Part shown: piece after piece, positions 39,011 through 45,795 of the stretch
Layout of the letters: each line of letters begins with the position of its first letter
Position numbering within the stretch: position 1 is the stretch's first letter
Origin: Chitinivibrionales bacterium
GTDB taxonomy: Bacteria > Fibrobacterota > Chitinivibrionia > Chitinivibrionales > WJKA01
Length of the DNA stretch: 64,000 bases
Assembly (NCBI GenBank): GCA_014728215.1
Contig: WJLZ01000185.1
Coordinates: 1 to 64,000 of the forward strand
Reading direction: 5' to 3'
Made by a program: the position numbers and the translations under genes
The notes under the pieces: model-generated
Database searches by the model: none
What the model saw: the letters and a program-made list of their open reading frames with translations, nothing else
Told to the model about the DNA's origin: nothing

Positions 39011-39481
39011 ATGACAAGGAACATGACACTATTCGGAGCTGGACATAAAATAGCGGCGCTTGCTTTTCCGGGCATTGCGCTGAGTTTGCTGATCGGTTTT
39101 TTGTTCAGGGATGTTTTCCGGTTTGGAACTATTCCTGCGCCGGTACTTGTGGGAAGTGGCATCGGCCTGATGGTAGTCGGGTTGAGTGTCAATTTCTTTT
39201 CCGCTTTTTCCATGATGCGTGCCTTTAAGGAGCACCGTCTTCTCACAAGCGGTCCATATGGTTTAAGTCGCAATCCAATGTATGCTTCGTTCATATTTCT
39301 AACAATTCCCGGCCTGAGCCTGGCGCTGAACTGCTGGGCCGTCCTGGCGGCGTCAGTCGCCTTGTATGCCGCCACAGCCCGCTTTGCTAAGGTTGAAGAA
39401 GAATGGCTGGCAGCACGGTTCGGCACAGAATGGGACGCATACGCGCACCAGGTCGGCCGGATTTTTCCAAAGGTATGGTGA
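39011..39481 (+). CDS. isoprenylcysteine carboxylmethyltransferase (ICMT/PEMT)-like membrane protein
   Basis: A 156-residue protein with four to five membrane segments. The C-terminal half has the family motif LLTSGPYGLSRNPMY (about residues 78-92, the R-x-P-x-Y SAM-binding turn), followed by VEEEWLAARFGTEWDAYAHQVGRIFP, where E-E-x-x-x-x-x-x-G-x-x-Y is the conserved cofactor-binding end. It likely methylates a lipid or a small molecule at the membrane; bacteria have no prenylated CaaX proteins, so the ICMT name gives only the fold. It ends 2 bp before the DUF116 gene, and both follow the promoter at 38954. Confidence 0.82.
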   Translation: MTRNMTLFGAGHKIAALAFPGIALSLLIGFLFRDVFRFGTIPAPVLVGSGIGLMVVGLSVNFFSAFSMMRAFKEHRLLTSGPYGLSRNPMYASFIFLTIPGLSLALNCWAVLAASVALYAATARFAKVEEEWLAARFGTEWDAYAHQVGRIFPKVW

Positions 39482-39483
39482 TA

Positions 39484-40581
39484 ATGACTACTGCAACAGA
39501 AACACTGAATCGGGCGGCAACCTATGATCTTCGGGCAAATCCGGCATGGACCGTCAGCCTGGGCATGCTTGCCGATGAATTTGTAATGGAGGGAAACAAA
39601 TACTGCGCGGAATTCCTTCGAGACTATTTCGCATGGAGTCCGAAATGGGCGCGCGGTATTGTCAATATCGAGACAATGCTGGAAGCGCTTACCTTTGGTG
39701 TTTTGTGGGACCTCTATGCAGAAGAATACCCTCATCAAAAGGCGGAAGACCGCATGGAAATGCATGAAACCGAAAGGACGGTGATTCCCGAGGGTCGTGC
39801 ACTTGCTGCAGTCAACCATTTTATCTCGCTTTTGCAGTTGATGGGAGAATTCGATGAAGAGGCGCGGCGGATCGAGCGGTTTGCAAAATTTTTTGCCGCT
39901 CGATCCGACACCGAAATCCGGCACTACCTCGATGCCATGACCCGGTTTGCCCGCTGGTTTCGCCGACGCGGGCAGGAGCTTTTAGGTGATATTACCGGAC
40001 ATGTTGAAGAATTCCGCATGCACGCGGCATTAGGTGATGAATACCGTGATGATGCCGCTCTCAGGAACCGTCATGAAGTCGAGTATCATCTCAACCTGCT
40101 CGCTGCAATTATTCTCAATTGCGCCTGGCACGACCGGTATACTGCCGAAAAGAAGAAGCTTCTGGTTCTTCCCGACTGTATGCGCCCCGATAACGGGAAA
40201 ACATGCCATGCTCTGAAAACCGGCCTTGGTCTGGTATGTATGGGCTGCACAAAAGAATGCGCGGTCAATCAGGCACAATGCTGTGCTGCCCGATTCGACA
40301 TTCCAACCGTTGTTGTCGAGCACCAGTCGGCAGTGTTTGCCGAAGAACATGTGCAAACCAATCGTAAAGAAGGCTATGCCGTTATCGGCGTCGCCTGCGC
40401 CCTGAGTCTTCAGGCAGGCGGATGGAAAGCACAGGATGCCGGGATTCCAGCCCAGTGCCTCCCTCTGAATTGCCCGGGCTGCACTCGCCACTGGACAGAG
40501 GGTGAACACCAGGCTACGGAAATAAACCTGGGACTTTTAATGGAACTCATGGAAGGGGCTAATTTTTCTCCTCAATGGTGA
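39484..40581 (+). CDS. DUF116 family protein
   Basis: A 365-residue protein starting MTTATETLNRAATYDL; an alternative ATG lies at 39475. The N-terminal two thirds are helical and charged, with RWFRRRGQELL. The C-terminal part holds many cysteines in the DUF116 arrangement: LLVLPDCMRPDN, C-H-A, VCMGCTKECAVNQAQCCA, then VGVACALSLQ and QCLPLNCPGCTRHW. The clusters suggest Fe-S or zinc binding. DUF116 genes are widespread in anaerobes and archaea, and their role is unsettled. It is translationally close to the ICMT-like gene, suggesting a shared modification pathway (inference). Confidence 0.75.
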   Translation: MTTATETLNRAATYDLRANPAWTVSLGMLADEFVMEGNKYCAEFLRDYFAWSPKWARGIVNIETMLEALTFGVLWDLYAEEYPHQKAEDRMEMHETERTVIPEGRALAAVNHFISLLQLMGEFDEEARRIERFAKFFAARSDTEIRHYLDAMTRFARWFRRRGQELLGDITGHVEEFRMHAALGDEYRDDAALRNRHEVEYHLNLLAAIILNCAWHDRYTAEKKKLLVLPDCMRPDNGKTCHALKTGLGLVCMGCTKECAVNQAQCCAARFDIPTVVVEHQSAVFAEEHVQTNRKEGYAVIGVACALSLQAGGWKAQDAGIPAQCLPLNCPGCTRHWTEGEHQATEINLGLLMELMEGANFSPQW

Positions 40582-43744: not shown

Positions 43745-45268
43745 TTACACATTCAGGAGCATGCCGTTCTTTTGCAGAGAGATGCTGTTTTCTACCAGAA
43801 CTCGCAATTCGTCGCTCTTCCCTTTGCCGAGATGAATCAGTAAATCTATAATGCTCAGATTCGCACGGATACGAAACAAATCGATTTCCAGCTTGAACGA
43901 CTCGCAGGGAATTCCGCCGTATTCATCATAGTATTCATTTTTGAATTCTTCATCGGTGTACCATTCCAGAATATCCGGCCGATTCCTGAACTGATAACTG
44001 AAATGGGCAAGGAAAAACCCAATATCAAAGGAAGGTGGGAATTCGTAGGAGCTTCCAAAATCTATCGCCGCAACATAGAGGGTGCTGAAATCACGACTCT
44101 TATCCTGTCCCACAAGGATATTGTGAGGTTGATAATCGCCGTGACATTGAACGAATCGGTCCGGCGACCCGACAAAAAGCATATCTTCCGCTTCTTTGAC
44201 ATATGCAATCAGGTCCGCTATCTGTTTCTGGAAAGGACTGAACGTCCGCCGGGCATTATCGATGTAGGAATCAAAACGGGCATGTTCGATATTCATACTG
44301 AGACCAGCTCCAGCCACATGGAGCCGTTTTTTATGAAGTGACGCGGCCCAGCGAGCCGCCAGGCGGTAAACCTGCGCGCCGGATTCGCGGGATGAAGCCG
44401 ACAGCATCGAATACATGCATTTCCCGCGCATCCCTTCCTCGATTATCAGGTATTCTCTCTTGTCTATTTTCAGAATCGCCGGTATACGGTAAGGTCCGCG
44501 GTCAAAGCCGTTTTCATGAATAGTCTGCATCACCTGCACCCGGTGAAGAAACCCATTGAAATGTTTTTCATCCGCGGTTTTTCGAAGAACAAGGCGGTAC
44601 CGTCTTTCATCCTCACCCTTGGGTCCAATAGTCACCTTTGTTACCGAAGTGTCCCGGCCTGAACGAATTGTTTCTTTGAAATAGGGTCTACACCGATTGT
44701 GGCGTATCTCTTCGGCAATTTCTTCTATGCTTTCGACCGGATGATCGAAAAAGGTTGGGAGTATCCCCACCACCGATTCATCATGGGCATCGCTGCCTGA
44801 AGTGGCCGTGAATTTTATCCGGTGCCAGTCGGTGAGAGCGCGACAGTTTTCCCGCACGTTATGGTTGCTGCTGAACACTTCGATGCCGTCAAGGAGGCGA
44901 CTTGAAAGCCGTTCATCCGACGGGTGGGCGCCGCCGCGCCAGGGATGGGCCCACACAAGCGCAGCTTCCGGATAACGGGCCCGCAGATCGGCAACAGTTG
45001 TTCTTTGATGAATCGATTCACGGGCGCCGAATATGAGCACATGACCGAAATCGGTACTCACTTCCTGGGCAGAAAACAAAAGAAAATAGGGTTCCAGATC
45101 GGTCTGTTCTCGAAGCTCATGAAGCTCCTGCGGCTTCCAGAGATAATGATGTTCGGTGATTACTACGCCCTGGATATTCTTATCTTTCAGGCGATAGATC
45201 AACGCAACCGGATCGATTCTGCTGCAGCCCGAATGCTTTCTGGTATGACAGTGAAGTTCTATCAACAT
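43745..45268 (-). CDS. PHP-domain phosphoesterase fused to an aminoglycoside-phosphotransferase-like kinase
   Basis: A 507-residue protein from the ATG at 45268 (AGGA 9 bases upstream). The N-terminal PHP domain (about 1-215) shows its metal ligands in order: ELHCHTRKH, VVITEHH, SAQEV, WAHPWRGG and GSDAHDES. The C-terminal domain (about 215-490) is an APH/choline-kinase fold: it has Brenner's motif HGDYQPHNILV with the catalytic Asp, then AIDFGSSYEFPPSFDIG (the DFG-like metal-binding Asp), and an N-lobe with LVLRKTADEKHFNGFLHRVQVMQ. One half would hydrolyse a phosphoester and the other phosphorylate a small molecule. I do not know this fusion as a described family. It lies just downstream of a dead M48 protease gene and possibly under the same sigma-54 promoter. 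Confidence 0.8.
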   Translation of the reverse strand: MLIELHCHTRKHSGCSRIDPVALIYRLKDKNIQGVVITEHHYLWKPQELHELREQTDLEPYFLLFSAQEVSTDFGHVLIFGARESIHQRTTVADLRARYPEAALVWAHPWRGGAHPSDERLSSRLLDGIEVFSSNHNVRENCRALTDWHRIKFTATSGSDAHDESVVGILPTFFDHPVESIEEIAEEIRHNRCRPYFKETIRSGRDTSVTKVTIGPKGEDERRYRLVLRKTADEKHFNGFLHRVQVMQTIHENGFDRGPYRIPAILKIDKREYLIIEEGMRGKCMYSMLSASSRESGAQVYRLAARWAASLHKKRLHVAGAGLSMNIEHARFDSYIDNARRTFSPFQKQIADLIAYVKEAEDMLFVGSPDRFVQCHGDYQPHNILVGQDKSRDFSTLYVAAIDFGSSYEFPPSFDIGFFLAHFSYQFRNRPDILEWYTDEEFKNEYYDEYGGIPCESFKLEIDLFRIRANLSIIDLLIHLGKGKSDELRVLVENSISLQKNGMLLNV

Positions 45269-45295
45269 ACTGTTCATTCCTGTTTGGGGAAAATA

Positions 45296-45795
45296 TCATG
45301 GATCATAATATTCAAGAGCTTCAGGAATCATCTTTTTAAGATTCCGTATACGGCGTTTATCCCCTGGGTGGGTACTTAGAAATTCAGGAGGATGTGCTCC
45401 GTCTTTCGCCTCGATCATTCTCTCCTACAAATCAACGGCTTCCTGCGGGTCATATCCTGCCATGGCCATGAAAATAAGCCCCAGACGGTCGGCTTCGGTT
45501 TCTTGCAGACGGCCGTATGGAAGGAGTATGCCGACCTGAGTGCCCAGACCGAATGCGGCAAAGGCAAGCTGTCGCATTACCTGTGGGTGGTCCCACAGAG
45601 CAACATCAAGGGCAATTCCCCCCAACTGGGCCAGTAGAAGCTGACTCATTCGTTCGTTGCCGTTGTTTGAATGGAGAGTTTTCATACTGCTCCTGTTGTT
45701 CCATGTCGTTTGTTCAGAAATCAGCCCATTTTTCAATCAGAGGAAAACATCGTGAAACCAAAGAGTATTAGAAGAAGAATTTTTACACACTGCAT
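45296..45795 (-). pseudogene. decayed M48-family metalloprotease (LoiP/YggG-like)
   Basis: GAGAAGGAG precedes an ATG at 45795 that opens a signal peptide (MQCVKILLLILFGFTMFSSD) and then a stop. A second frame continues NGLISEQTT and then NGNERMSQLLLAQLGGIALDVAL, TQVGILLPYGRLQETEADRLGLIFMAMAGYDPQEAVDL, and meets TAG at 45425. Beyond it, in frame, come ERMIEAKDGAHPPEFLSTHPGDKRRI and KKMIPEALEYYDP with a TGA at 45296. In intact relatives a Trp joins V-D-F-W-E-R-M, so TAG probably arose from TGG. The HEXXH zinc motif is deleted; the third ligand region E-T-E-A-D remains. So there is a frameshift, an internal deletion and an amber stop, yet the sigma-54 type promoter at 45909 is intact. Confidence 0.8.

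Follow-up and report, generated by a model that had tools for sequence, protein, structure and literature searches.

A conserved, apparently undescribed fusion of PHP and APH/choline-kinase-like domains in two environmental bacterial phyla

Introduction

PHP proteins, which include phosphatases and phosphodiesterases (PMC11656708), hold their metals with nine ligands that canonically read H, H, D/H, H, E, H, C/H, D/N and H (PMC3666897), the third, fourth and ninth of which bind the gamma metal (D68, H93 and H262 in Sb-PDE/No-PDE; PMC11656708). Described phosphoesterases of this kind (PF02811/PF13263) include TM0559 (2anu), the BAD-type 3e0f and No-PDE/Sb-PDE, and solved PHP proteins also include PsfC, a dinuclear non-heme iron enzyme (PMC12871164). 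CehA/McbA metallohydrolases (NF038032), a carbamate-hydrolase family, are a further point of comparison. The APH/choline-kinase superfamily (PF01636, PF01633), which comprises APH(2'')-IVa, choline and ethanolamine kinases and PsiK, is recognized by a kinase-like fold and by the HGDxxxxN and DF(G/D) motifs.

Several enzymes carry two successive or opposing activities in a single chain, among them PNKP, 6-phosphofructo-2-kinase/fructose-2,6-bisphosphatase and AAC(6')-Ie/APH(2'')-Ia. Their partner domains are different and none combines PHP with APH; the likeness to the protein described here is one of analogy, not kinship. A preliminary description of this DNA knew of no described family with a PHP–APH pairing, and our searches agree: the two domains in one chain were found neither in the open-licence literature, where a single paper has both terms but in separate contexts, nor among the curated models of Pfam and NCBIfam. 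Here we report a real and conserved family of such fusions, apparently undescribed, in two environmental bacterial phyla. Each of its domains is well known; what is new is the architecture, together with an unusual substitution in the metal site.

Results

The window analysed here is a stretch of 64,000 nucleotides from a Chitinivibrionales bacterium (contig WJLZ01000185.1). On its minus strand, which carries all features of the fusion gene given below, positions 43745–45268 encode a protein of 507 amino acids in which an N-terminal PHP domain is followed by a domain of the APH/choline-kinase fold at the C-terminus. The longest reading frame (45277–43745) opens with the first in-frame ATG at 45277 and spans 510 amino acids; residues are numbered from this codon. 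Judged from the sequence, translation more probably begins at the second ATG (45268): a Shine–Dalgarno-like AGGA (45278–45281) precedes it at 9-nt spacing, and at this point most of the Omnitrophota homologues open, with MLLE. The PHP domain, including its PHP_C end, covers residues 4–199 (44681–45268) according to Pfam, NCBIfam, Foldseek and the family alignment, and the kinase-fold domain covers about residues 203–490 (43808–44671) according to Pfam, the structural model and Foldseek. Together with the predicted secondary structure, these two domain matches take up the whole chain, which has no sensor or regulatory domain. In the family alignment the junction (residues 196–232) is 32% invariant compared with 18% overall, a difference that partly reflects the conserved PHP end, common to a stand-alone PHP relative.

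Identical architecture was found in 18 full-length proteins: that of the window, one from another genome of the same order and 16 from Omnitrophota. The second copy in the order, also full-length, comes from a genome of a different family and is 61% identical to the first. Among 384 sampled Omnitrophota genomes there were 13 full-length copies, three of them in seed genomes, and three more were found later; the named Omnitrophota records are L003–L005. In the window's phylum, 2 of 168 genomes carry the fusion, as do about 3% of the sampled Omnitrophota. Profile searches covered these two phyla, and for all others the coverage was a single pattern scan from one query, so occurrence may be wider. 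Within the genomes searched in the two phyla, no strong relative was split into separate PHP and APH genes. A full-length relative was likewise not found in collections of phages, plasmids and viruses, where the matches were partial, confined to the PHP half and located on three plasmid records. In the tree, the window protein pairs with that of G012 with full support, and a long branch sets the two apart from the Omnitrophota members; midpoint rooting was for drawing only, and the direction of descent is therefore not readable from it. The patchy presence suggests horizontal transfer or repeated loss. A shortened copy in G615 (L092, 219–524) lacks the middle of the protein, with the residues up to about 82 followed, in one reading frame, by roughly 20 from the C-terminal end, and arose either by deletion or by mis-assembly.

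Codon comparisons of the five pairs with measurable dS gave dN/dS values of 0.054–0.175 for the PHP half and 0.079–0.166 for the APH half, indicating that both are under purifying selection. Together with the 18 homologues of the same architecture, these low values exclude a chance join. An assembly or contamination artefact in the window's genome might be suspected, because the fusion was not found in one other genome of the genus (77% complete) nor in most of the order. We consider this extremely improbable: the full-length copies in 17 other genomes are independent and already refute an artefact of architecture, and each of 21 genomes searched has a homologue of a DegP-type gene that neighbours the fusion on its 130,928-base contig, from which we conclude that the contig belongs to the window's genome.

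An AlphaFold2 model of the full-length protein, built from 15 homologues, reached a mean pLDDT of 89.1 and a pTM of 0.75. The folds of both halves are predicted with confidence (pLDDT 88–89). For the PHP half of the window protein, Foldseek returned 2anu and 7rty (E about 1e-7, probability 1.00) among solved PHP proteins including TM0559 and PsfC, the latter also a weak profile match. Pfam PHP_C matched residues 143–196 above its cut-off (3e-5) and Pfam PHP matched below its own (0.011); across 15 members, APH was detected in 15, PHP_C in 13 and PHP in 13. In each of nine PHP halves scanned, CehA_McbA (NF038032) was the best NCBIfam match (E values down to 2.4e-16), and models for RNase RNM and nucleoside-bisphosphate phosphatase matched as well. 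The window protein nevertheless scores under the CehA_McbA cut-off (1.1e-10; 41.5 bits against 80), matches only positions 5–195 of the 315 in the model and, unlike the CehA/McbA enzymes, carries a kinase.

The preliminary description credited the protein with a full set of PHP metal ligands. Eight of the nine canonical ligands are indeed in place (H9, H11, H43, E72, H79, H111, D163 and H165), whereas the motif-I Asp is replaced by an invariant cysteine, Cys18. In the alignment of 15 members, H9, H11, H43, E72, H111, D163 and H165 are invariant, and H79 is His in 14 and Asp in one. Cysteine is able to ligate zinc or iron. The alignment places the HxH ligands H9-C-H11 at 45245–45253 and Cys18 at 45224–45226, the third PHP position and that of a gamma-metal ligand in the published lists (PMC3666897, PMC11656708). 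The substitution runs throughout the fusion family; of eight stand-alone PHP relatives inspected, seven keep the motif-I Asp and the eighth lacks the motif. On the predicted fold, membership of the PHP superfamily stands, although the ligand set falls one short of the canonical nine. The fusion thus resembles the PHP phosphoesterases in fold, in eight of nine ligands and in the PHP_C end, and differs from them in Cys18 and in its C-terminal kinase domain.

The kinase half belongs to the APH superfamily by its predicted kinase-like fold, its Pfam profile and its HGDxxxxN and DF(G/D) motifs. Pfam APH matched residues 204–434 of the window protein above cut-off (1.2e-8), Pfam PF01633 (choline/ethanolamine kinase) fell below (19.7 bits against 29), and choline kinase alpha gave a weak profile match (E 0.0024). 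Foldseek retrieved PsiK, choline and ethanolamine kinases and APH(2''), and the half modelled alone (pTM 0.87) retrieved the same kinase neighbours. The catalytic loop HGDYQPHN (residues 379–386; 44120–44143) and the DFG-like IDFG (residues 405–408; 44054–44065, within IDFGSS, 405–410) occur as first described. All 15 aligned members have D381, N386 and D406, and the motifs HGDxxPxN and DF(G/D) are invariant in the family, the latter reading DFG or DFD. The phosphotransferase core is complete in the C-lobe and atypical in the N-lobe, where the VAIK-type position 232 is Lys or Arg and no column is invariant between R228 and G257, a stretch that includes the predicted alphaC helix; the helix thus has no conserved acidic residue, Glu included. 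The protein is 12–18% identical to solved members of the superfamily, from which it further differs in the N-terminal PHP domain. NCBIfam was of no use in naming a kinase substrate: its matches were weak and mixed (Bud32, PRK11768, CotS, AmgK and homoserine kinase).

In the window, the fusion gene is flanked by a ferric-reductase-like gene on one side and the remnant of an M48 peptidase gene on the other. The remnant (45321–45736, minus strand), directly upstream of the fusion, holds only the C-terminal part of its domain; an in-frame TAG lies at 45425–45427, and peptidase-like sequence runs on past the stop. Elsewhere in the window, genes for a PAS histidine kinase and a sigma-54 response regulator lie upstream of one for a DUF116 protein (39403–40581, plus strand) whose C-terminal half is rich in Cys. 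The main Omnitrophota clade keeps the fusion in a block with genes for thioredoxin reductase (TrxB), a ZIP-type transporter, thiol peroxidase (Tpx), a desulfoferrodoxin-like protein and 2-oxoacid oxidoreductase (Kor); neighbour names outside Pfam are read from the sequences. Around the diverged members the neighbours differ (methyltransferase/ABC, FecR, MipA, HD, hydrogenase and trehalose-phosphatase genes, and elsewhere a rubrerythrin gene or unrelated ones), so no partner is constant across the family, and we rejected the gene neighbours as a guide to the substrate. We take the redox block to reflect one shared ancestry; it is weak evidence for a redox role of the fusion. Beside the fusion in G401 lies a gene joining a HAD hydrolase domain to a trehalose-phosphatase domain (L050, 7041–8678, minus strand).

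No kinase gene was found among the immediate neighbours of stand-alone PHP relatives in Omnitrophota, and these therefore provide no Rosetta-stone link. Three of these stand-alone genes (L086, 5575–6234; L087, 5359–6021; L088, 323–988) adjoin a polysaccharide-deacetylase-like gene in an arrangement upstream of ribosomal protein genes; those of L086 and L087 are also near UDP-glucose dehydrogenase- and epimerase-like genes, again named from the sequence.

Discussion

With catalytic residues conserved and purifying selection acting on both domains, the two halves look like working enzymes, as was first proposed from the DNA. We tentatively favour, at a probability of about 0.45, an enzyme with two active sites that would hydrolyse a small-molecule phosphoester and phosphorylate the same molecule or the alcohol set free. 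The protein is probably cytosolic. Its PHP domain, whose metal site carries Cys where the gamma-metal Asp would stand, would cleave a phosphomonoester or phosphodiester, and its APH/choline-kinase-type domain would transfer phosphate from a nucleoside triphosphate to a hydroxyl on either that molecule or the alcohol released. Catalysis by both halves, the phosphoester chemistry, a shared or consecutive substrate, its nature as a small molecule and the order of steps are what we infer; the overall role would be a two-step salvage or a relocation of phosphate, by a logic resembling that of polynucleotide kinase/phosphatase and acting on a small metabolite. Several observations weigh against this proposal. 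The motif-I Asp is Cys in every member, and the change of Asp to Asn at this position (D23N) abolishes the exonuclease of another PHP enzyme, Mtb DnaE1 (PMC5636811). The alphaC region of the kinase has no invariant acidic residue, the closest PHP profile is that of CehA/McbA and one of the fold matches is a dinuclear-iron enzyme. Moreover, no constant gene neighbour backs any particular pathway, and fusion alone does not prove a shared substrate.

The main rival to this two-site phosphoester reading keeps the kinase and changes its partner: the PHP half would be a carbamate/ester hydrolase of the CehA/McbA type, or a PsfC-like metal oxidase, whose product the kinase half phosphorylates. The leading rank of CehA_McbA in every PHP half scanned, the fold and profile matches to PsfC with its dinuclear non-heme iron (PMC12871164), the Cys in place of a canonical ligand and the redox genes beside one Omnitrophota clade all speak for it. 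The CehA_McbA score of the window protein is nevertheless below the model's cut-off, the RNase RNM and nucleoside-bisphosphate phosphatase models match too, and the redox neighbours form a single syntenic block that is not constant; on balance we think this rival unlikely. A different use of two conserved catalytic sites in one chain would be an on/off switch, in which the halves act in opposite directions on a single phosphorylated metabolite, in the manner of 6-phosphofructo-2-kinase/fructose-2,6-bisphosphatase; this is the self-contained cycle raised in the preliminary description. Sequential salvage or relocation is favoured over such a cycle because the chain has no sensor or regulatory domain, and opposition without regulation would presumably waste ATP; we regard the switch as improbable. 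It is also quite improbable, in our judgement, that one half is catalytically dead and serves a structural or regulatory role. E. coli DNA polymerase III, with a PHP domain of this kind, sets a precedent (PMC3666897), and such a loss would fit both the presence of Cys18 where a ligand is required and the unusual N-lobe of the kinase. That dead example, however, has five of nine ligands altered (PMC3666897), whereas the fusion family keeps eight of nine together with all C-lobe catalytic residues of the kinase, across proteins only about 40–60% identical.

A bolder reading, which we advance with considerable doubt, is that these proteins make up a new class of bifunctional metabolite hydrolase/kinases. 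Such enzymes would pair a Cys-liganded PHP metal centre, whose metal or chemistry may have changed, with an APH kinase, the two acting sequentially on one metabolite of an as yet undescribed pathway. The constant fusion of two enzyme types is in itself a functional clue, as the kinase half likely uses what the PHP half makes or takes. The family offers a natural test of how a PHP site behaves once its gamma-metal Asp becomes Cys, and the fusion provides a tractable handle on the metabolism of the largely uncultured Omnitrophota and of the window's order.
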